DNA from: an uncultured Pseudomonadota bacterium
GTDB taxonomy: Bacteria > Pseudomonadota > Gammaproteobacteria > Ga0077536
NCBI GenBank assembly: GCA_903825645.1
Contig: CAIKBL010000023.1
Location: 1 to 64,000, forward strand
Length of the DNA: 64,000 bases
Reading direction: 5' to 3'
Notes under the pieces: generated by a model
Told to the model about the DNA's origin: nothing
The model's database searches: none
The model's input: only the letters and a program-made list of their open reading frames with translations
Translations under genes and position numbers: made by a program
Part shown: positions 18,384-31,860 of the stretch, piece by piece
Position numbering within the stretch: the first letter of the stretch is position 1
Layout of the letters: every line of letters begins with the position of its first letter

Positions 18384-20015
18384 TTACATGTTTGGATAAT
18401 TGGGGCCGCCGCCCCCTTCAGGAGTCACCCAATCAATATTTTGTGAAGGATCCTTAATGTCACAGGTCTTGCAGTGCACGCAGTTTTGCGCATTGATGCG
18501 CAAACTTTGCTGACCAGATTCTTCGACGAACTCGTAGACACCTGCCGGACAGTAACGCTGCTCTGGCCCAGCGTAGACGGCGAGATTAAGCCGAACGGGA
18601 ACGCCCGCGTCTTTCAGCGTCAGATGGCAGGGTTGGTTTTCCTCATGGTTGGTGTTTGACAAAAACACCGAGGACAGCTTATCGAAGGTCAGTTGGCCAT
18701 CCGGTTTGGGATAATCAATGGGCTTGCATTGTGCCGCAGGTTTGAGCGAAGTGTGATCCGGCGTATGCCTGAATGTCCAAGGTGCCTTACCGCGTAAGAC
18801 CAAGGTATCGAGCGCCCCGTAGCCTAGGGCCACCCAAAGCCCCCAATGGAATGCCGGCTTGATGTTCCTCACTCGGTAGAGTTCATCCCAGAGCCACGAG
18901 TTCTTCAGGCGATGGGGGTAATCCACGGCTTCGCGCCCAATTTTATCGTCGACCCGGAGTAATTCGAACACGGCTTCCGCAGCCGTCATCCCCGATTTCA
19001 TCGCCGTGTGGCTGCCTTTTATTTTCGGCAAATTGAGAAAACCGGCGGTGTCCCCGACGAGCATGCCGCCCGGGAACGTCAACTTGGGAATGGATTGAAA
19101 ACCACCCGCGCTTATTGCGCGTGCACCGTAGGAAACGCGGCGCCCGCCACTAAATGTTTCACGAATGGCCGGATGCGTTTTGAACCGCTGCATTTCATCG
19201 AAAGGGCTCAGATAGGGATTACTGTAATTGAGGCCCAACACATAACCAACCGCGACCAAGTTGTTCTCAAGATGATAGAGAAAAGAGCCCCCGTACGTTG
19301 CCTGATCGACGGGCCAACCAATAGTATGGCTGACCAGACCTTCGAGGTGCTGATCAGGCTTCACTTCCCATAATTCCTTAATGCCTATCCCATAGACCTG
19401 CGGATCGACACCACTGCGCAACTGGAAGCGCTCAAATAATGTCTTGGTCAGTGACCCACGGCAACCTTCAGCAAAAATAGTCTGCCGCGCATGAAGTTCC
19501 ATTCCAGGCGCAAAATTCGCACCCTCCTCACCCGCCTTCGTCCGCCCCATGTCTCCGGTTGCGACGCCCTTTACAGAGCCATCTGGATGATAGAGGACTT
19601 CGGCCGCGGCAAATCCGGGATAGATGTCAACGCCCAAGGCCTCTGCCTGCTGCGCAAGCCATCGACAAACATTACCCAAACTGACGATATAGTTCCCATG
19701 ATTATGCATGGGGGGCGGCGTGGGCAATCTAAATGCCCGTTTTTCAGTCAGAAACAGAAAGCGATCTTCCGTGACCGGGGTGTTAAGTGGTGCGCCAAGC
19801 GTCTTCCAATCCGGGAGCAACTCGTCTAAAGCCCGTGGCTCAAAGACGGCGCCTGACAGCGTGTGCGCGCCTATCTCCGAGCCTTTCTCGAGCACACACA
19901 CCGAAAGCTCATGGCCGTGCTCCGTCGCCAACTGTTTCAACCGTATCGCCGCAGCAAGGCCCGCTGGCCCACCGCCCACGATGACGACATCGAACTCCAT
20001 TGCCTCTCGCTCCAT
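18384..20015 (-). CDS. Electron transfer flavoprotein:ubiquinone oxidoreductase
   Basis: Membrane-associated flavoprotein that passes electrons from reduced ETF to ubiquinone. The 543 residues match the family: N-terminal FAD motif ([17 protein letters not shown]), TLSGAVFEP, the [16 protein letters not shown] contact, and a C-terminal [4Fe-4S] ligand set, YCPAGVYE plus [16 protein letters not shown] 20015 is preceded by AAAGGGAG; an in-frame ATG five codons later is less likely. It lies 20 bases after etfA in the same direction, giving a complete ETF to quinone route for the acyl-CoA dehydrogenases encoded in this window. Confidence 0.96.
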
Positions 20016-20035
20016 GAGCTTGCTCCCTTTCGACG

Positions 20036-20968
20036 CTACTTACTGAGCGCGTCGATTAACGCGGGCACTTCCTTGAACAGATCACCCACCAGCCCATAAT
20101 CCGCCACTTGAAAAATAGGCGCTTCCTCGTCCTTGTTGATGGCGACAATGACCTTGCTGTCCTTCATGCCCGCAAGATGTTGAATAGCACCGGAGATCCC
20201 AACAGCGACGTAAAGCTGCGGCGCTACTACCTTGCCAGTCTGACCAACCTGATAGTCATTGGGGACGTACCCGGCATCGACCGCTGCCCGAGAGGCACCC
20301 ACTGCCGCACCGAGGGTATCCGCCAACTTTTCGATAATCGCAAAATTCTCGGCACTGCCGACGCCCCGTCCACCTGACACGATAATGTCGGCCGCCGCGA
20401 GTTCTGGTCGGCTAGATTTTGTAAGTTCTTCCCCCTTGAAAGAAGATAACCCTGCATCTGGCCCTGGTGGCACCTTTTCGATCGCGGCGCTACCGCCCGT
20501 GGCGGCCACCGGATCAAAACCTGTAGTCCGCACCGTGATCGCTTTGACTCGATCGATTGACTGCACTGTCGCCAAGACATTGCCGGCATAGATCGGTCGC
20601 ACGAAGGTATCCTCACTGACAACACTTATGATGTCTGAGAGCTGCGCCACATCCAGTAACGCGGCTATTCGCGGCATTACGTTTTTCCCGTTGCTCGTTG
20701 CGGCCACCAGAAGATGACTGTAGCCGGCGGCCAACTGCACTACCAAGGGTGCGAGATTTTCCGCCAATCCATGTGCATAATGTCCGGCATCAGCGAGCAG
20801 CACTTTGCTGACACCCATTACCTGTGCAGCTGCATCTGCCACAGCCTGACATTCGTGGCCTGCCACGAGGATGTCCACTGAACCCAGTTTACTCGCCGCG
20901 GCGACGGCGTTAAGCGTCGCGATGTTGAGCATGACGTTGTTATGTTCTGCAATGACGAGGGCACCCAT
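20036..20968 (-). CDS. etfA: Electron transfer flavoprotein, alpha subunit
   Basis: FAD-binding subunit of the ETF heterodimer, which accepts electrons from acyl-CoA dehydrogenases. The C-terminal FAD signature is intact: [17 protein letters not shown] followed by [19 protein letters not shown]. The [12 protein letters not shown] block is also typical. At 310 residues it has normal length. It follows etfB with a three-base gap, so the subunits are translationally linked. Confidence 0.96.
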
Positions 20969-20971
20969 AAT

Positions 20972-21721
20972 TCAAATTACCTTAGCTTCGTTGCGGAGTT
21001 TTGCTACTAATTCTTGAACATCTGCGACCTTCACACCGCCCGCCCTTGCGGCAGGCTCCGCGGCCTTAACGAGTTTCAGGCGCGGACTGATGTCTACCCC
21101 GAGTTCGGATGGGGTCACGATATCTAGGGGCTTCTTTTTTGCCTTCATGATGTTCGGTAATTTGACATAGCGAGGTTCGTTGAGTCGTAGATCGGCGGTG
21201 ACTACTGCAGGCAGCTTAAGACTCAAGGTCTGCAGTCCGCCGTCAACTTCACGCTTCACTTCCAAGGTCTCCGATTGAACATCTAGTTTGGCCGCAAAGG
21301 TGCCCTGCGCCCAACCAAGTAATCCGGCGAGCATCTGGCCCGTCTGATTGGAATCGTCGTCGATCGCCTGCTTGCCAAGAATCACCAACCCCGGTTGCTC
21401 TTTATTGACCAACGCTTGCAATAACTTGGCGACCGCTAAGGGCTGCACCTCTTCATCGGTTTGTACCAAAATGCCCCGATCCGCACCCATGGCCATCGCC
21501 GTCCGCAAGGTTTCCTGACATTGGGCTGAGCCAATCGAAACCGCCAAGATTTCTTGGGCCTTACCGGCCTCCTGGAGGCGAATAGCCTCTTCTATCGCGA
21601 TTTCGTCAAAAGGGTTCATCGACATCTTGACGTTGGCGAGTTCAACGCCGGAGCCATCAGATTTCGGACGCGCTTTAACGTTGTAATCAATAGCGCGCTT
21701 CACGGCCACCAGGATCTTCAT
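20972..21721 (-). CDS. etfB: Electron transfer flavoprotein, beta subunit
   Basis: AMP-binding and recognition-loop subunit of ETF. The N-terminus [14 protein letters not shown] and the [11 protein letters not shown] block are family signatures, and the recognition region ([19 protein letters not shown]) is present. ATG 21721 has a strong GGAGG seven bases upstream, giving 249 residues; the frame is open seven codons further without need. It is first in a run of six or seven genes. Its promoter must lie in the 250-base interval shared with the divergent gcdH. Confidence 0.96.
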
Positions 21722-21875
21722 GATTGCCTCCAGCTTAAGCAATTGGCGCCATCACGCACGCGGACCCTTCTCTGGGCGCGCGTAGGATGAGGCATGGACT
21801 CTATCAGGACGCCGGATATTACCAGTAAAGGCCTGATCGAAAAAGGCGAGATAAACGAGCAGACTGCGACACCGA

Positions 21876-23377: not shown

Positions 23378-23776
23378 ATGAATATTTATGTCGGGAACCT
23401 GCCCTACAACGTCCGTGACGAAGAACTTCGGGCCACTTTCGAACCTTATGGCACCGTTGTGTCCGCAGAGGTAATTTTTGACAAACGAACGCGTCGGTCG
23501 CGAGGATACGGCTTTGTGGAGATGACCGTCGACGCTGAAGGACAACGTGCAATCGCCGCCCTAAACGGCTCGGAACTTTACGGTCGCGAGTTGCGCGTAG
23601 ATGCCTCTCAACCGAAAAGCGACAAGCCCGAGCCGGGAAGCCGCGAAGGGGGCTCTGAGCGTGATAACCGCGGCAGAAGCCCGCGTAGTGGAAACAACGA
23701 GCGCTCCAACCCTTCGCCTACCGCACCGGAAAGTGCAGCAGGCATTAAAGGGTTCTTCAAGCGGTTGTTCGGCTAG
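23378..23776 (+). CDS. RRM-domain RNA-binding protein
   Basis: A 132-residue protein with one N-terminal RNA recognition motif (residues 1-78): RNP2 is IYVGNL and RNP1 is RGYGFVEM. A disordered tail rich in Arg, Gly, Ser, Asn and Glu (about 80-120) ends in a short basic-hydrophobic motif, GIKGFFKRLFG. Bacterial RRM proteins of this size occur in proteobacteria and cyanobacteria and are often linked to mRNA binding or cold adaptation. The gene appears monocistronic. Confidence 0.9.
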   Translation: MNIYVGNLPYNVRDEELRATFEPYGTVVSAEVIFDKRTRRSRGYGFVEMTVDAEGQRAIAALNGSELYGRELRVDASQPKSDKPEPGSREGGSERDNRGRSPRSGNNERSNPSPTAPESAAGIKGFFKRLFG

Positions 23777-24131: not shown

Positions 24132-25034
24132 TTACGGCCCCTCGCCAGCGGCGTCAAGCCGACGCGTGGCGTCGGCGAAATAGTCGGGCTTGTCCGTTGT
24201 CCAGATTTCCCCCCAATGCTGGCCAGCGCCATCGATGGTGAGGATTTCTCCGTTAATGTATCCACCTGCTGGGCCCCCGATAAAAACGGCAGCCTCCGCA
24301 ATCTGCCAAGGCGACCCGACCCGCTGCATCGGGTTAGTCAATGGGTATTTCGCGCGCGCCGCCTCACTATAGACCGCCCACCCTTCCGTCTGAATCGTGC
24401 CCGGGGCAATACAGTTGACGCGAATATCGAGAGGGGCCCATTCGACAGCGACAGCTTGTGACACCGCCACAACCCCTGCACGTGCGGCGACCGTATGGGC
24501 GACGCCATGCAGTCCCCGAGGCACCACCACAATATTCACGATGCTGCCAGGAAGATGCGTATCGCGCCATTTACGTGCGTGTGCCTGCATCATCGACCAC
24601 GTACCATTTAAGTTGGTGTTAATGACCGTATTCCAGCCCTTTTCCGAGAAATCGAGAGCGGCCTGCGGAAACTGCCCACCTGCACTGTTGATAAGGATGT
24701 CGACTTTCTCAAAGCGCCCCCATATCGTCTCCGTTGAGCGTTCAACCCAAGCTCGATCGCGAATATCGACCGGTTCAAACTCCGCATCCAACCCGTGTTC
24801 CCGCATAGCATCGACTACGCCAACAAGCTTGTCCTCGTTTCGTCCACAGATGATGACGCTCGCCCCGAGACGCCCTGCGAGCCAAGCCGTCGCCCGACCA
24901 ATACCGCTACCGCCGCCTGACACGAGAACAACTTTACCTTGCAGCATATCCGGCGCGAAGACCGTAGGATGAATCGCAAGTTCTTCGTTGCTGGTCGGAA
25001 TTTCATTGAGGTCCGTCATGGTCGCCGTACTCAT
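24132..25034 (-). CDS. SDR family oxidoreductase resembling peroxisomal-type 2,4-dienoyl-CoA reductase
   Basis: A 300-residue short-chain dehydrogenase. The cofactor motif SGGGSGIGRA (39-48) and INSAGG are standard, but the catalytic YxxxK is missing: the region reads AHTVAARAG, with Arg185 at the lysine position and Thr181 at the tyrosine position, and His180 just before. That layout, followed by AVEWAPLDIRVN and APGTIQTEG, matches the peroxisomal 2,4-dienoyl-CoA reductase type and related SDRs of acyl-CoA pathways. It overlaps the acyl-CoA dehydrogenase stop (ATGA) and is last in the operon, so a dienoyl- or oxoacyl-CoA substrate is likely. Confidence 0.83.
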   Translation of the reverse strand: MSTATMTDLNEIPTSNEELAIHPTVFAPDMLQGKVVLVSGGGSGIGRATAWLAGRLGASVIICGRNEDKLVGVVDAMREHGLDAEFEPVDIRDRAWVERSTETIWGRFEKVDILINSAGGQFPQAALDFSEKGWNTVINTNLNGTWSMMQAHARKWRDTHLPGSIVNIVVVPRGLHGVAHTVAARAGVVAVSQAVAVEWAPLDIRVNCIAPGTIQTEGWAVYSEAARAKYPLTNPMQRVGSPWQIAEAAVFIGGPAGGYINGEILTIDGAGQHWGEIWTTDKPDYFADATRRLDAAGEGP

Positions 25035-26245
25035 CGCCGTTGTAACAATTCGCGACTAATGATCATTTTTCGTACTTCAGTAGTGCCTGCGCCAATTTCC
25101 AAAAGTTTGATCGAACGATAGAGCCGATTGATCTCTGCTTCCCAGATGTAACCATAGCCACCGTGGATTTGAAGCGCCTCGTTCAGTACCTGATTGAGAG
25201 TATTCGCGGTATACATCAGCGAAGCTGCTGTCTGGGCATGGATCATGCCGCGACCACCCTCGCCAACTTCCAAATCGTTGGCTTCTGCGAGCACGCCGTA
25301 ACATAGCGCGCGCATGCTCTCGACCCAAACGTACATGTCGGCAATCTTCGATTGGATCATTTGAAATTCAGACAACGGCTTGCCGAATTGGACACGCGTT
25401 TTCGCGTAATCAATCGAAAGCTCAAGCGCACGCTCAGCAACCCCAACGCAGATAGGCGAAATCACGGCGCGCTCGAGATCGAGTCCGCTCATAACCACGG
25501 CGACACCCATGTTTTCCTGCCCAACCAGATTTTCAACAGGAACTTTACAGTTATCGAAAACCAACTCTCCGGTCTGACTCCCGCGAAAGCCCATTTTTAT
25601 GAGTTTTTGCGCGACACGAAAGCCTGGAAAGTTCTTTTCGACGATAAACGCGGATATACCATGAGGACCTCGCTCGGGAGCGGTCTTCGCGTAAACGAGC
25701 AAGGTATCGGCAACTGGTCCATTCGTGATGTAGATCTTGCGCCCATTCAAGATGTAGTAACCGCCGTCTCGCTTCGCCGTCGTGCGCATGGAACCGAGCG
25801 CATCGGAACCTGCCTCGGGCTCTGTCAATCCCAAGGCGCCAATGGCTTTACCGGAACACAAGTCAGGCACGTATTTTCGACGCAAATCGTCGTTGGAGTT
25901 ACGATAAATATTATTCAGGCACAGATTTTCGTGTGCTATCCAGGACAAGCTAAGCGCGTAGTTCCACCGCGCCATGGCCTGACAAACTAGTCCACTGGTA
26001 AAGAAATCCAGACCGGCGCCCCCATACTCTTCTGGCACAGTGATTCCGAAGTAGCCTTGTTCTCCAATTTTCTCAAACACATCCTCCGGCCACCATTCCT
26101 CGTTGTCCATACGCGCAGCTAGTGGGTACAGCACATTACGTGAGAACTTGTCCGCTTCATCCAGAATGGTTTGTTGATCCGGTGTCAACTTGAATGCATG
26201 TGAACGCGGGGCAGCACTATCAAGGCTTGAAGATGGCTGGGACAT
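25031..26245 (-). CDS. Acyl-CoA dehydrogenase (isovaleryl-CoA dehydrogenase-type active site)
   Basis: A 404-residue flavoenzyme. GALGLTEPEAGSDA and YITNGPVADT are the FAD and substrate motifs. The catalytic glutamate is at the isovaleryl/long-chain position, E258 in SGLDLER, while the usual C-terminal position reads EIGAGTTEVR without glutamate. This points to branched or otherwise unusual acyl-CoA substrates. ATG 26245 follows a GGAG; a GTG four codons earlier is possible. It lies 117 bases after the enoyl-CoA hydratase and overlaps the SDR start. In LvaC and ACAD10/11 systems a dehydrogenase-family protein acts on a phosphorylated 4-hydroxyacyl-CoA; here that role is inferred from context. 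Confidence 0.9.
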   Translation of the reverse strand: MSQPSSSLDSAAPRSHAFKLTPDQQTILDEADKFSRNVLYPLAARMDNEEWWPEDVFEKIGEQGYFGITVPEEYGGAGLDFFTSGLVCQAMARWNYALSLSWIAHENLCLNNIYRNSNDDLRRKYVPDLCSGKAIGALGLTEPEAGSDALGSMRTTAKRDGGYYILNGRKIYITNGPVADTLLVYAKTAPERGPHGISAFIVEKNFPGFRVAQKLIKMGFRGSQTGELVFDNCKVPVENLVGQENMGVAVVMSGLDLERAVISPICVGVAERALELSIDYAKTRVQFGKPLSEFQMIQSKIADMYVWVESMRALCYGVLAEANDLEVGEGGRGMIHAQTAASLMYTANTLNQVLNEALQIHGGYGYIWEAEINRLYRSIKLLEIGAGTTEVRKMIISRELLQRR

Positions 26246-26362
26246 CGTAAACTCCACTCGGCAGGTTGAAATCTAAATTTTCCGTGGCATCTAGCCATCG
26301 GCATTTGTTTGTCGGACCATAACGAATGCCCCCGGGGTTGTCCAACCAGAGGGCCTTAGCAG

Positions 26363-27142
26363 TCAGGTCTGTGGCTTACTCTTGGCGAGAAACGCCTCCA
26401 TCGTGGCGAGCGTTGCGGGTGTTGCCGCGAGGCTTGCAATGGCCGCGCCTTCAAGCTCCAGTTGCTCAGGCAGTGTGTTTCGCAAACTTTGACGCAATAG
26501 CGCCTTCAAATTACCGACTGCATCGGAAGGCATAGATGCGAGTTGCAGCACCAATTTTTCGACCTCTTGTTCGAAGGTCTCGTCATCGACTACCCGGGCG
26601 ATCAACCCCAGCTTTTGCGCCATATCCGCTGTCAGCGTTGGGTTGGTCGCAAGAATATCGAATGCGCGCTGCACCCCCACAAGTCGTGGCAGGAAATAAG
26701 TCGCCCCACCATCCGGCGTAAGGCCTGATCGCGTATAGGCGAAATTAAATTTCGAAGAGCGACTCGCGATGGCGAGATCGGTCATGCATACAAGGCTAAC
26801 GCCGCCTCCCGCCGCGAGGCCATTAACCGCGGCTACCACCGGCACCGCCAATTTATTTAAGACCGCGATCGCCGAGTGAAAATCAATCGTCATTTCACGC
26901 ACATGCGACTGAATGTGATCGCGCTCTCGCACAAACTCTCGCAAATCGCCCCCGACCGAAAACTGGTGGCCCTCGGCACTCAACAATACGCAACGTAACC
27001 CGGGCGTCACCTCACATTGGACCGCGGCGGTCCTGAGACCCTGCGTAACGAGTCGATCAACGGCGTTATAACCAGTCGGGTTAGAAAGCGTAATTCGAGC
27101 AATTCCGTTCTGGATTGAGAATTTAACCTTGCCACCACTCAT
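26363..27142 (-). CDS. Enoyl-CoA hydratase/isomerase family protein
   Basis: A 259-residue crotonase-fold protein. The oxyanion-hole motifs are present (SVGGDLREF and NGLAAGGGVSLV), as is the SGLTPDGGATYFLPRLVG segment. The first catalytic glutamate position of classical hydratases is less clear than in FadB, so isomerase or hydratase activity cannot be separated. The overall pattern resembles PaaG-like members. Its ATG overlaps the stop of the preceding DUF6285-like gene by four bases. Confidence 0.87.
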   Translation of the reverse strand: MSGGKVKFSIQNGIARITLSNPTGYNAVDRLVTQGLRTAAVQCEVTPGLRCVLLSAEGHQFSVGGDLREFVRERDHIQSHVREMTIDFHSAIAVLNKLAVPVVAAVNGLAAGGGVSLVCMTDLAIASRSSKFNFAYTRSGLTPDGGATYFLPRLVGVQRAFDILATNPTLTADMAQKLGLIARVVDDETFEQEVEKLVLQLASMPSDAVGNLKALLRQSLRNTLPEQLELEGAAIASLAATPATLATMEAFLAKSKPQT

Positions 27143-27525: not shown

Positions 27526-28548
27526 TCAGTGGTAGTGACCGAGCAGGGTCATTAGCAGGTCATATTCAATCAGTGCGGTGTTACGTCCACACGCTGCAAA
27601 GGCTGGCGAGCGACGTACACCGGTCCAGTGGCCGTGAGCCTGCATAATATTGAGCACTATCCAGCGAACAAACCCGAATACCTCCCACCAGTGCACGGCT
27701 TCGGCGTCAACCTCAATCCCGCTTGCCGCCGTGTATGCCCGATACAGTGGCTCGCGACCGCAGAATCCACCAACTGGTTTGTCGATGAGCCCGAAGCGCC
27801 ATGAACGCAAACACAGCCAACCGAATTCTTCCATGGGATCGCCAAGATGAGCGCATTCCCAGTCCAGTACCGCCCGGATTCCTTCCTGCCCCATAAGCAG
27901 ATTGCCGGTGCGAAAGTCACCATGGAGAAGACAGCGATTTGACGCGCGACGGGGGTGTCGAACCAACCAGCGAATCGCTAATTCGAGTGCCGGATGGGCC
28001 TCACCGTAATAATCAAAGCGCGCGAGTTGCGCCGCTACCGGATCGAGACTATCCGGGGTCTGTTCGAGGAACACTGCTTCCAGCGTCGAGATCGCGTGCA
28101 GCCGTCCAATAAAGTCACCTGCCTGCGTAGGAAAGTTCTGGCGTGCCATTTCGAATCGAGGGTCGGTCAGGAGTCGTCGGGGCAACGTTTCTCCCTCAAC
28201 AAAGGCCACGACATAGCCACGGTCAAGTCCATCTTGCGGTTCAAACTCGAAAATCGGCTCCGGAATCGCCAACCCATGGCGCTGCGCGACTTCAAGCAAC
28301 TGGTACTGGTCATGTGGCGCAATAAATGGCGACTGCTCGAGACGATAAGTTTCTTGCCTGAAGACCAAGCGACGGCGCGTAGGGCCTTCGACTAGGTCGA
28401 AAAGCAGTGTGCGATTTGAGCCGCCAAGCGTTGCTACCTCGATATTTTCAAGGGCGGCAGCCGTTCCAAAACGACGCCTTACCGCGCCCTCGAGCCGCTG
28501 TAGCAGCTCTCGGGGCGCCGCGGGTGAAGATGTTGCATCCATGTTCAT
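27526..28548 (-). CDS. APH-like phosphotransferase (acyl-CoA pathway kinase; LvaA/ACAD10-11 kinase-domain type)
   Basis: A 340-residue aminoglycoside-phosphotransferase-fold kinase. The catalytic loop is HGDFRTGN (209-216) and the metal-binding segment is LDWECAHLGDP (228-238). The GGSNRTLLF loop near residue 42 replaces the usual glycine-rich motif. Members of this subgroup are fused to, or encoded beside, acyl-CoA dehydrogenases (ACAD10/11, LvaA) and phosphorylate the hydroxyl of hydroxyacyl-CoAs rather than antibiotics. Its neighbours here support that reading and argue against a resistance gene. The stop of the paralogue pair's second gene abuts it directly. Confidence 0.85.
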   Translation of the reverse strand: MNMDATSSPAAPRELLQRLEGAVRRRFGTAAALENIEVATLGGSNRTLLFDLVEGPTRRRLVFRQETYRLEQSPFIAPHDQYQLLEVAQRHGLAIPEPIFEFEPQDGLDRGYVVAFVEGETLPRRLLTDPRFEMARQNFPTQAGDFIGRLHAISTLEAVFLEQTPDSLDPVAAQLARFDYYGEAHPALELAIRWLVRHPRRASNRCLLHGDFRTGNLLMGQEGIRAVLDWECAHLGDPMEEFGWLCLRSWRFGLIDKPVGGFCGREPLYRAYTAASGIEVDAEAVHWWEVFGFVRWIVLNIMQAHGHWTGVRRSPAFAACGRNTALIEYDLLMTLLGHYH

Positions 28549-29550
28549 TCAGAGCGGATAACCGACCGGTTTTCCATCTTCTAGGACTTCGATGTATTCC
28601 GTCATCCCTACTCCCGAACGATCGCCCCACTGCCAATGTGTGAAACCCTCGGCAATTCGGGATTCCAGCGTCCCGGCCCCCTCTTTGCGCCGATTACGCA
28701 ACGGCAACAAGGTTTTGATTTCCCCCGTCACCTGTACCGCCCGTTGTGCCGTGCGGATACCGAGCTGTACATGACGGGGATCTTTTTCAGGCGTCCAATC
28801 TGTCCAAACATCCAAATCGGTAATTTCCTCGTACCCCCCGTCGTATTGAAGCACACCACATCGACGAGTAACCCCATCTCGCCCCGTGATTTTAAGTAAC
28901 ATAAAGCCCCGATCTGGACCAAAATTTGCGATAAAAAGACGATAAAAATAAATGTTAGTCCAGAAGCGCGGTCCCCAGGAATGATCACGCCAACCATGCC
29001 CGTCGAGGGGGAAAAATTCGTCTCCGACCCGGATGTGACCTAATACATTGGTATGTTGATTGAAATGGCCCAGCGAGAAATCGCGGCCATACATCGTCTC
29101 GATGTGAGGGTCCATCGGCTCACCACCATGCAATGGCGAATTACCCGTTGCTTCAAGCACGACTTCACAGGCTAACCGCGGGGCATTGGCAAATACTTTT
29201 TTTGGATCGCGCATCTGCTCCGCGCCAGACAGCACCATAACTTCGCCCTCATAGCGCATGCCCACCCGTTTCAAAGGCTCCGACACATGATATTTGAGCC
29301 CGCCCGCATCGTGCTGACCATTGGAGACGATAGTCGGTCGTTGGAACTGGCAGGCAACTCGGCCATCAGGAAGATAAAGACACACGGAAAGCTCCGCGTA
29401 TCCTTCATTGACCCGATTGCCGAGCCGCATCCAGGCACCGTAGCGGCCTGCTGGATGAAAGCCATTCAGATAGACGCTTTCGTTGAAATTTTTTTCAGAA
29501 GACGGCGTATGGGTTAACTCATCCTGTGCGGTAAGGCGAAACGATTGCAT
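28549..29550 (-). CDS. AttH/CrtC-like uncharacterised protein, copy 2 (DUF7064/7065-like)
   Basis: A 333-residue cytosolic protein with no signal peptide. The conserved core is GWRDHSWGPR at 186-195, preceded by YGRDFSLGHFNQHT (154-167); the WxDHxWGxR pattern recalls the hydroxyneurosporene-synthase/AttH lipocalin-like superfamily. It aligns without gaps to the next gene upstream across at least 200 residues, and both end in GMTEYxEVxxDGxPxGYPL. The function is unknown; a role in binding or hydrating a hydrophobic substrate is only a guess. Its stop directly abuts the kinase ATG at 28548, so the two are cotranscribed. Confidence 0.75.
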   Translation of the reverse strand: MQSFRLTAQDELTHTPSSEKNFNESVYLNGFHPAGRYGAWMRLGNRVNEGYAELSVCLYLPDGRVACQFQRPTIVSNGQHDAGGLKYHVSEPLKRVGMRYEGEVMVLSGAEQMRDPKKVFANAPRLACEVVLEATGNSPLHGGEPMDPHIETMYGRDFSLGHFNQHTNVLGHIRVGDEFFPLDGHGWRDHSWGPRFWTNIYFYRLFIANFGPDRGFMLLKITGRDGVTRRCGVLQYDGGYEEITDLDVWTDWTPEKDPRHVQLGIRTAQRAVQVTGEIKTLLPLRNRRKEGAGTLESRIAEGFTHWQWGDRSGVGMTEYIEVLEDGKPVGYPL

Positions 29551-29644
29551 GGATTCTCTTTCGATTGTGGACGGGACTGTCTGTCAAATTGTCTAATGAA
29601 GCCCGTAAAAGGCGCGATTTTCGCGCCAGTCCGGAAGCATGTAG

Positions 29645-30646
29645 CTAGAGAGGATAACCCGAAGGAATCCCGTCGCGCATGACCTCTACATATTCGGTCA
29701 TGCCATACCCCTTCAACTCGCCCCAAGTGTACTCGGTGAAACACTCAGCGATCCGAGATTCTGTCAGCACACCCGCAATCTCGCGACGATTACGCAATGG
29801 CGCACAGTTCAATATACGTCCTTCAATTAGAGCCGCTCGGCGTGCAGTCCTCACGCTCAGACGGAAACTGACCGGATCTCGTTCATCAGACCACTCGTTG
29901 AAGATGTCCAAATCTATAATTTCTTCATATTTGCCATTTACTTGCAAAACACCGCCACGACGGACCTGCCCGTCCCCATTTGCGATTTTCAATAACATCA
30001 ACCCATGGCATGAATCAAAATTCGCCATGTAAAGCCGGTCAAACAAAATGTTTTGCCAAAGCCGAGGTCCCCACGAGTGATCACGCCAGCCAAGCCCATC
30101 CAGATCCCAGTGCTCGTCGCCCAGCTGGAGGCGGCCGGTAACCTGGGTATGTTGGTTGAAATGACCGAGGGAAAAATTCCTACCATAAAGTGTTTCCTGA
30201 TCATCACGCGTCGGTAAGCCGCCATGGACAGGCGACACCCCTTTATGAACCCATTGAACTTCGGCGGAGACTCTCGGTGCGCGCGCAAACAAGGTCTTTG
30301 GATCTCTGAACCAGTCAGGATCTGATACCAGCATCAATTCACCGCGGTAAGTCATCGTGATGGCTTGCAGCGGCTCCTGGACCGTTACCTCCAAGCCACC
30401 GGCGGAAAAACGCGAATTGTCTAGGATCTTTGGGCGCTTGAACTGACAGGCAATACGCCCGTCGGGCAAATACAGACAGACCGCCAGCTCGGCATAACCC
30501 TCGTGAACTCGGTTACCAAGCCGCATCCAACCGCCCCACTGGTGTCGGTGATCGAAGGCATTCATATAAACGCTTTCGTTAAAACAGCTCTCCGCGGATG
30601 GCGAGTGCGGATATTCGTCCTCTGCAGTCAAAAGATAGGATGACAT
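29645..30646 (-). CDS. AttH/CrtC-like uncharacterised protein, copy 1 (DUF7064/7065-like)
   Basis: A 333-residue paralogue of the next gene downstream, the same length and gaplessly alignable. The same core motifs are present: YGRNFSLGHFNQHT and GWRDHSWGPR at identical positions. Divergence is spread along the chain, indicating an old duplication and possibly a heterodimer or two substrates. ATG 30646 was chosen because its product aligns exactly with the N-terminus of the other copy; the frame stays open 22 codons upstream. It is the first gene of the leftward operon. The 94 bases between the copies show no strong terminator. Confidence 0.75.
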   Translation of the reverse strand: MSSYLLTAEDEYPHSPSAESCFNESVYMNAFDHRHQWGGWMRLGNRVHEGYAELAVCLYLPDGRIACQFKRPKILDNSRFSAGGLEVTVQEPLQAITMTYRGELMLVSDPDWFRDPKTLFARAPRVSAEVQWVHKGVSPVHGGLPTRDDQETLYGRNFSLGHFNQHTQVTGRLQLGDEHWDLDGLGWRDHSWGPRLWQNILFDRLYMANFDSCHGLMLLKIANGDGQVRRGGVLQVNGKYEEIIDLDIFNEWSDERDPVSFRLSVRTARRAALIEGRILNCAPLRNRREIAGVLTESRIAECFTEYTWGELKGYGMTEYVEVMRDGIPSGYPL

Positions 30647-30843: not shown

Positions 30844-31860
30844 ATGCGCTTTGGCTTTATGGAAGATTTTCGCAACCCCGTAAAATGGCGCAAGCCCTTT
30901 CCGGAGTTCTATTCATCTATTTTTGATCAAATCGTGCGGGCGGAAGAATTGGGCTATGACAACGTCTGGCTGACTGAGCATCACTTCACCGAGGACGGCT
31001 ATAATCCGTCCATGTTCCCGACCGCCGCCGCAATCGCGGCTCGGACCAGTCGAATCCGCATTGGCACCTTCATTCATCTTCTACCATTCACGCATCCAGT
31101 CCGCGCGGCAGAAGATCTCGCTTGCGCCGACATTATCTCCAACGGCCGTATCGATTATGGCATTGGCCAAGGGTACTCCTATCACGAATTCAATGCCTTC
31201 TGCATGAACCGGAGCGAGCGTGGCCTGCGCATGCGTGAAGGCATTAACCTCATGGTTAAGCTTTTCACCGAAGAAAAAGTGACTTTCGATGGGCGCTTCA
31301 CGCAAGTCAAGGAAATGACCCTTTCACCAAAGTCAGTGCAACTCCCCCATCCACCAATCTGGGTAGGTGCGCGCGGGCCGAAAGCGATTAAGCGTGCTGC
31401 TGAGATGGGCTACCACCTGATGGCGACGCTTGGACCTGATCCGGCGCCGCTCTACCAGCAGACTTTGCAGGAGACTGGGCGCAACCCGGCAGACTTCAAT
31501 ATATGTCAATTGCGGATGGTGTATTGCGCCGAAAACGAAGACCAAGCCTGGGACGAATGCCAACATCACCTATTCCACCTATTTGATTTTTATCAGGATA
31601 TCCTGTCCGAAGCGAACGATGCGGAAGGGGATGACAAACCGCTACCCATCTCGCGGGCAGAAGATATTCGCCACTCCCCCCTCGCAGAGGGATTGATGAT
31701 TGGGACACCCGAGCAGGTTGCCCGCAAGATGGAGAAATTCGCGGCTACTTATCAGTGCACTGACTTCATCATGGATTGTCAGTTCCCGGGACTAAATCCT
31801 AAGCTAGGTACACGCTCGTTGGAACTCTTCGCTAAGGAAGTTATGCCGGCATTCCGCTAA
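30844..31860 (+). CDS. LLM-class flavin-dependent oxidoreductase (first)
   Basis: A 338-residue luciferase-like monooxygenase-fold protein. Typical features are MRFGFMEDFRNP at the N-terminus, AEELGYDNVWLTEHHF (helix and strand 2), RIRIGTFIHLLPF, RIDYGIGQGY and WVGARGPKAIKRAAEMG. The EHHF motif favours FMN-dependent monooxygenases over F420-dependent dehydrogenases. GGGAGG precedes the ATG with good spacing. It is divergent from the tandem-paralogue operon across a palindrome-bearing promoter region and probably belongs to the same catabolic function. The substrate is unknown. Confidence 0.9.
   Translation: MRFGFMEDFRNPVKWRKPFPEFYSSIFDQIVRAEELGYDNVWLTEHHFTEDGYNPSMFPTAAAIAARTSRIRIGTFIHLLPFTHPVRAAEDLACADIISNGRIDYGIGQGYSYHEFNAFCMNRSERGLRMREGINLMVKLFTEEKVTFDGRFTQVKEMTLSPKSVQLPHPPIWVGARGPKAIKRAAEMGYHLMATLGPDPAPLYQQTLQETGRNPADFNICQLRMVYCAENEDQAWDECQHHLFHLFDFYQDILSEANDAEGDDKPLPISRAEDIRHSPLAEGLMIGTPEQVARKMEKFAATYQCTDFIMDCQFPGLNPKLGTRSLELFAKEVMPAFR

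Follow-up and report, generated by a model that had tools for sequence, protein, structure and literature searches.

Two adjacent genes of an uncultured gammaproteobacterium (lineage Ga0077536; NCBI GenBank assembly GCA_903825645.1, contig CAIKBL010000023.1) encode related proteins of 333 residues, copies A and B, which are predicted to adopt a two-domain lipocalin-like fold, are homologous to the 25-phosphosteroid lyase (25-PSL) and conserve their motifs intact. The gene of copy A adjoins that of an APH-fold kinase, and copy B is dispensable in related genomes. We propose that this locus probably serves an ATP-dependent dehydration in two steps: the kinase would phosphorylate a substrate, and copy A would eliminate the phosphate. 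The window, i.e., the whole stretch of 64,000 nucleotides that was analysed, corresponds to positions 1 to 64,000 of the forward strand of the contig, and its relevant features are collected in Table 1.

In the proposed pathway, the kinase would add a phosphate to a hydroxyl group; its substrate is most likely a catabolic intermediate linked to CoA, with a branched or isoprenoid-like structure. Copy A would then eliminate the phosphate, with Asp189 helping, and leave a C=C double bond, as 25-hydroxysteroid kinase (25-HSK) and 25-PSL do in Sterolibacterium denitrificans. The resulting alkene would pass to the enoyl-CoA hydratase, acyl-CoA dehydrogenase, SDR, and ETF enzymes of the operon, and copy B most likely would handle a second phosphorylated substrate or isomer. 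To our knowledge, the phosphorylation of an unactivated alcohol followed by its dehydration is rare, the cases being anaerobic sterol degradation, the repair of hydrated NAD(P)H, and the catabolism of 4-hydroxy acids (by a flavoenzyme).

Table 1. Genes and motifs of the window, with positions counted along the whole stretch.
Feature	Position	Strand	Remarks
ETF-quinone oxidoreductase, EtfA, and EtfB genes	18384..21742	-	Keep their synteny with the locus in related genomes
Short-chain dehydrogenase (2,4-dienoyl-CoA reductase-like)	24132..25034	-	4-base overlap with the acyl-CoA dehydrogenase gene
Acyl-CoA dehydrogenase	25031..26257	-	Best solved relatives are isovaleryl-CoA dehydrogenases
Enoyl-CoA hydratase/isomerase (crotonase)	26363..27142	-	4-base overlap with the DUF6285 gene
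DUF6285 protein, 124 aa	27139..27513	-	Directly downstream of the kinase; size and position like LvaB, the small partner of LvaA
APH-fold kinase	27526..28548	-	Starts at the base after the copy A stop codon; catalytic HGDFRTGN and LDWE intact
Copy A, predicted phosphate-eliminating lyase (DUF7065+DUF7064), 333 aa	28549..29550	-	Core copy, kept in all locus-bearing genomes
GWRDHSWGPR, copy A residues 186-195	28966..28995	-	Asp189 aligns with the 25-PSL Asp that is Asn in 9g4c
Copy B, derived paralogue, 333 aa	29645..30646	-	Tyr203->Asp and Thr198->Gln fixed when compared with A; accessory, absent from 10/25 genomes
GWRDHSWGPR, copy B residues 186-195	30062..30091	-	Identical to the copy A core
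Luciferase-like monooxygenase	30844..31860	+	Divergent from copy B; synteny kept, 68-91% identical

Sequence and fold of the tandem proteins

Copies A and B share 190 of 333 residues (57%) in a BLASTP alignment that runs over their whole length with 0 gaps (E 4e-143), so that the gapless match reported for at least the first 200 residues in the initial annotation extends in fact to the complete proteins. The cores YGRxFSLGHFNQHT and GWRDHSWGPR that it had pointed out are found in both copies alike, and GYPL closes the two proteins. Both genes are intact. The copy B gene starts at an ATG within a longer GTG ORF. Compared with their orthologues in a congener (G002), copies A and B have dN values of 0.15 and 0.14, respectively, and dS is 3.5 for copy A and saturated, not calculable, for copy B, which shows that both are under purifying selection. 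In Pfam, both copies pass the gathering cut-offs of DUF7065 (27 bits) and DUF7064 (24.7 bits), copy A with 37.5 and 70.1 bits and copy B with 49 and 50.1 bits, respectively. PF23213 is rare across the phylum, being present in 2 of the 398 sampled genomes, and our literature search found no paper naming DUF7064, DUF7065, or DUF6285.

A and B are the only full-length copies of this genome. Another contig carries one more DUF7065 gene, related to them far more remotely (G000:C42, L096:5432-9576), with an APH kinase of its own some 2 kb downstream and crotonase, CoA-transferase, and luciferase-like genes upstream.

The AlphaFold2 models reached a pLDDT of 94.1 for copy A (43-member alignment) and 93.4 for copy B (31-member alignment), with a pTM of 0.91 in both cases. 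The top Foldseek match of both models was the 25-PSL of the PDB (E 6.5e-13 for A and 3.0e-13 for B), followed by Diels-Alderases, kievitone hydratase, and AttH, which formed the same set for the two copies. When copy A was compared by VIA-align 2, where Z differences below 1 count as ties and the next unrelated rows appear at about 8, it gave Z 24.4 with 25-PSL 9g2i (rmsd 3.2 over 276 residues), 25.2 with AttH 2ich, 24.6-25.8 with CghA, Fsa2, and Phm7, and 23.5-23.6 with kievitone hydratase. The initial annotation had guessed from the cores a membership in the AttH/CrtC lipocalin-like superfamily and had proposed to predict the structure of each copy and to search with it; the two-domain lipocalin-like fold obtained for both, on which Foldseek and, for copy A, VIA-align 2 agree, shows that the guess was right. 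It had looked for the relatives in CrtC and AttH, and here the superfamily holds, whereas the closest solved relative is 25-PSL and not CrtC, which had been missed.

The relation to 25-PSL is also visible by sequence, once the family is considered as a whole. Copy A alone matches 25-PSL weakly (E 0.056), and a plain phmmer search of the PDB with copy B returned chance matches only, but a profile of the 43-sequence family finds 25-PSL with an E of 1.1e-5 and AttH next with 0.021. No relative other than 25-PSL passes E 0.001 by sequence. Profile and 25-PSL are colinear along three stretches (9-98 on 17-105, 158-195 on 142-182, and 301-320 on 333-352). The identity with the 25-PSL of Sterolibacterium is 16-18%, and this value, together with the tie at Z around 24-26 with hydratases and Diels-Alderases, speaks against the lyase model. 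We do not assign the copies to 25-PSL, because neither orthology nor close identity was found. A literature search for the structure of 25-PSL did not find any paper.

The RDHSWGPR motif and the comparison with known enzymes

The second colinear stretch places the RDHSWGPR of the family opposite the RDRSWGVR of 25-PSL. A sequence variant of 25-PSL (PDB 9g4c) reads RNRSWG, with Asn where the other 25-PSL has Asp, and its structure contains desmost-1,4-diene-3-one, the product of the reaction, along with phosphate; from this substitution we infer that the depositors probably replaced the motif Asp to trap the complex. The equivalent Asp in both window copies is Asp189. Arg188, Asp189, Ser191, Trp192, Gly193, Arg195, His162, Glu24, and a few more residues are invariant in 40 relatives that span two phyla, i.e., Alpha-, Beta-, and Gammaproteobacteria plus Actinomycetota.

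This Asp is not exclusive to the lyase. In the family profile, AttH has the motif Asp aligned as well, and CrtC requires His239, Trp241, Tyr266, and Asp268 (PMC4717167). In a match based on spacing only, His162 and Asp189 are separated similarly to the CrtC His and Asp, and Asp189 is possibly the counterpart of the catalytic Asp in the CrtC hydratases. Since the residue is aligned in AttH and has a similar counterpart in CrtC, it is a superfamily residue, necessary but not sufficient as evidence for the elimination of phosphate, so the motif Asp marks the superfamily and not this reaction alone, which tells against the lyase model.

These likenesses are the ground for supposing that the two proteins work without the kinase, as hydratases or dehydratases of the CrtC/kievitone hydratase type that add or remove water at an isolated isoprenoid C=C bond, and that the kinase uses the resulting tertiary alcohol for some other end. 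This appears rather improbable. Besides the spacing of His162 and Asp189, the supposition can call on the fold in common with kievitone hydratase (Z 23.6); however, the positions of the CrtC Trp and Tyr are occupied by Asn164 and Trp187 in the same spacing-based match, the only relative that is reached significantly by sequence is 25-PSL, and a kinase maintained next to the pair would have no obvious role. CrtC, AttH, kievitone hydratase, CghA, Fsa2, and Phm7 resemble the window proteins in their two-domain lipocalin-like fold (Z 23.5-25.8 over 273-292 residues), but they share 10-17% identity with them and perform other chemistry. We know of no kinase partner for CrtC, AttH, kievitone hydratase, or the Diels-Alderases.

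The elimination of phosphate by copy A has its model in Sterolibacterium, where 25-HSK attaches a phosphate to the tertiary hydroxyl at C25 and a second enzyme, a lyase, splits it off again to yield the alkene; in 2021, this lyase had not yet been named and there was no candidate near the 25-HSK gene (PMC8449060), a point that counts against the model. The PDB entries of January 2026 name it as 25-PSL. The window locus shares with this system the kinase plus lyase logic, the fold of the lyase, the motif RD(H/R)SWG(P/V)R, the colinear homology, and a kinase of the phosphotransferase family. In contrast, kinase and lyase are neighbours in the window, they belong to an operon with beta-oxidation genes and DUF6285, the lyase is duplicated, and the identity is low, as stated above. 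A further difference concerns the substrate: in a search for HsaA, which marks the aerobic degradation of steroid rings, all genomes of the order stayed below the cut-off, and thus a steroid ring substrate is unsupported at this locus. By analogy, the DUF7065/DUF7064 family would be on the lyase side of the 25-HSK/25-PSL logic, with the kinase here adjoining, and it is the position of 25-PSL as closest solved relative that turns the neighbouring kinase into a likely mechanistic partner.

The kinase and the surrounding catabolic genes

The kinase carries an APH domain (PF01636, E 5e-27), with HGDFRTGN at 209 and LDWE at 228, and shows weak matches to solved structures such as 3ats (E 4.2e-6), ACAD11, and others. 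The entry 3ats is listed with the same sequence as 3att, and 3ATT is the Rv3168 protein, in the literature a putative enzyme of aminoglycoside resistance (PMC3691515). In Mycobacterium tuberculosis, the kinase gene Rv3168 belongs to the same operon as Rv3169, and this operon is repressed by Rv3167c (PMC5340868). This operon fits the same pattern as the window locus, both containing an APH-fold kinase and a DUF7065/DUF7064-type gene, but it has a single lyase-type gene, and the window copies score 36.5 and 30.7 bits with the NCBIfam Rv3169 family (NF053593), below its curated cut-off of 150.

The initial annotation had given weight to the kinase neighbour, and the comparison of genomes agrees with it. 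The 25 loci with sufficient flank come from the window's order (36 genomes, one family) and from two further gammaproteobacterial contigs. In every one of them the kinase gene comes next after copy A on its downstream side, and the DUF6285 gene follows the kinase in all of them but one, where the contig ends. As these loci are orthologues, remote paralogues were tested too. An APH-type kinase, often as the next gene, was found on the same 7-15 kb stretch for 11 of 20 remote paralogues of the same order (found with PF23212, family-profile E 1e-6 to 1e-40) versus 0 of 18 arbitrary control stretches of similar length from that order (Fisher p 1.4e-4), although some of the 20 are mutually orthologous and represent fewer independent events.

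The kinase is also the next gene on plasmids of Pseudonocardia, Mycobacterium branderi, and Cupriavidus, and it lies within the same cluster on plasmids of Sulfitobacter, Variovorax, and, at a greater distance, Rhodococcus. A Mycobacterium avium plasmid encodes an ecdysteroid-kinase-like protein two genes upstream of the family gene, and a kinase gene and a DUF7065-type gene are adjacent in a genome of another family (G433). In the marine gammaproteobacterial clade with 34-38% identity no kinase was found nearby, and thus the link with the kinase is strong but not universal.

Several other loci deserve mention. Two Mycobacterium plasmids (L092:6912-8993 and L095:3738-6960) contain pairs of kinase and DUF7065/DUF7064 genes, one of them with an ecdysteroid-kinase-like gene instead of a plain APH. 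A marine gammaproteobacterium (L027:9980-11942) has an independent tandem pair whose two members differ strongly from each other, being 34% and 27% identical to copy A, with no kinase nearby. On the Sphingomonas paeninsulae plasmid NZ_CP032828.1 (L094:5908-9136), a weak homologue is followed by sulfotransferase and SDR genes, with cysD, cysN, and cysQ close to them, and sulfation might replace phosphorylation there in providing the leaving group; a sulfotransferase beside remote paralogues was seen on this plasmid and at none of the other loci checked.

More tentatively, it is possible that the DUF7065/DUF7064 proteins are in general phosphate-eliminating lyases paired with APH-type kinases in Proteobacteria and Actinobacteria, Rv3168-Rv3169 included, for the ATP-paid dehydration of unactivated alcohols, with tandem copies processing two products of one kinase and sulfation perhaps taking the place of phosphorylation in some lineages. 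If DUF7065/DUF7064 were the lyase half of such a module, a large family of "unknown function" and the neighbouring "aminoglycoside phosphotransferase" annotations would gain a joint function that can be tested, and this function would extend to Rv3168-Rv3169, whose kinase has so far been called a putative resistance enzyme.

The genes that follow the kinase in the window provide some hints about the substrate. The likeness of the acyl-CoA dehydrogenase to isovaleryl-CoA dehydrogenases hints at a branched acyl chain. The DUF6285 protein, which to judge from its size and position may be of the LvaB family, supports a CoA-linked substrate, yet it also feeds a different reading, in which the kinase and DUF6285 serve the acyl-CoA dehydrogenase by the LvaABC or ACAD10/11 route, this dehydrogenase eliminates the phosphate from a 4-phospho-acyl-CoA, and the DUF7065 pair hydrates, isomerises, or binds the lipophilic acyl chain. 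The gene order kinase, DUF6285, crotonase, acyl-CoA dehydrogenase, and SDR is in line with it, as are the facts that the kinase LvaA has a 12-kDa partner in LvaB (PMC6692424) and that LvaC performs the phosphate elimination (PMC11342911). In these systems a hydroxyacyl-CoA is phosphorylated and the phosphate eliminated, and a kinase with a small partner stands beside an acyl-CoA dehydrogenase, but the elimination is carried out by the dehydrogenase and no DUF7065 protein has been described. We regard this route as unlikely at the window locus, since the window dehydrogenase is nearest to isovaleryl-CoA dehydrogenase, with no ACAD10/11 among its best 60 matches in the PDB entries compared, the invariant immediate neighbour of the kinase is copy A and not the dehydrogenase, and kinase and DUF7065 also occur as a bare two-gene operon in Rv3168-Rv3169. 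In Variovorax, DUF6285 is encoded between the kinase gene and the acyl-CoA dehydrogenase gene.

Promoter and terminator scans of the locus gave no more than shuffled sequences did. A gene for an RRM-type RNA-binding protein (window 23378-23776) keeps its synteny across the order within the catabolic cluster, and G010 contains a second pair of APH kinase and DUF6285 genes (L064:17520-18934) that comes downstream of the operon's SDR gene, directly next to it. Three metagenome-assembled contigs labelled "Klebsiella pneumoniae" (L003, L006, and L013) carry the locus and look like misnamed bins.

Divergence and distribution of copy B

Copy B forms a single clade of 14 rows in both trees, with support of 98/90 and 100/98. 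Residue 203, located eight residues past the RDHSWGPR motif, is Tyr in every copy A and in almost every other relative and Asp in every copy B, indicating that B is the derived form at this position. The change Thr198 to Gln is fixed in B as well, and Thr222 to Ala is fixed in B and nearly so in A. All the conserved core residues are retained in copy B.

The initial annotation had explained the old duplication either by heterodimerisation or by two related substrates, and it had indicated that genomes routinely lacking one copy would count against it. Among the 25 genomes of the window's order with copy A, copy B is present in 15 and absent from 10, counts that come in part from incomplete genomes. 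The equal length of the proteins, their ungapped alignment, the adjacency of the genes, and a B clade that is monophyletic and conserved where present would suit an obligate heterodimer with one or both subunits catalytic. Nevertheless, we consider such a heterodimer very improbable, because, apart from the absences of B, a distance of 1-4 kb separates the two genes in several genomes, with other genes between them in G008; both observations argue instead for a second specificity. The genomes lacking B suggest that copy A is soluble and active alone. Two related substrates may be the explanation, one that the residues fixed differently in A and B favour, and the role of copy B would most likely be the one proposed for it above, on a second phosphorylated substrate or isomer. 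If A and B are lyases, the pair would represent a clean case of lyase duplication and change of specificity, in which A is always present, B is derived, and the Tyr to Asp change is fixed.

In two congeners without copy B (G001 and G003), copy A is directly beside the luciferase-like gene. This gene, which stays in place where copy B has been lost, shows one of the highest degrees of conservation at the locus.
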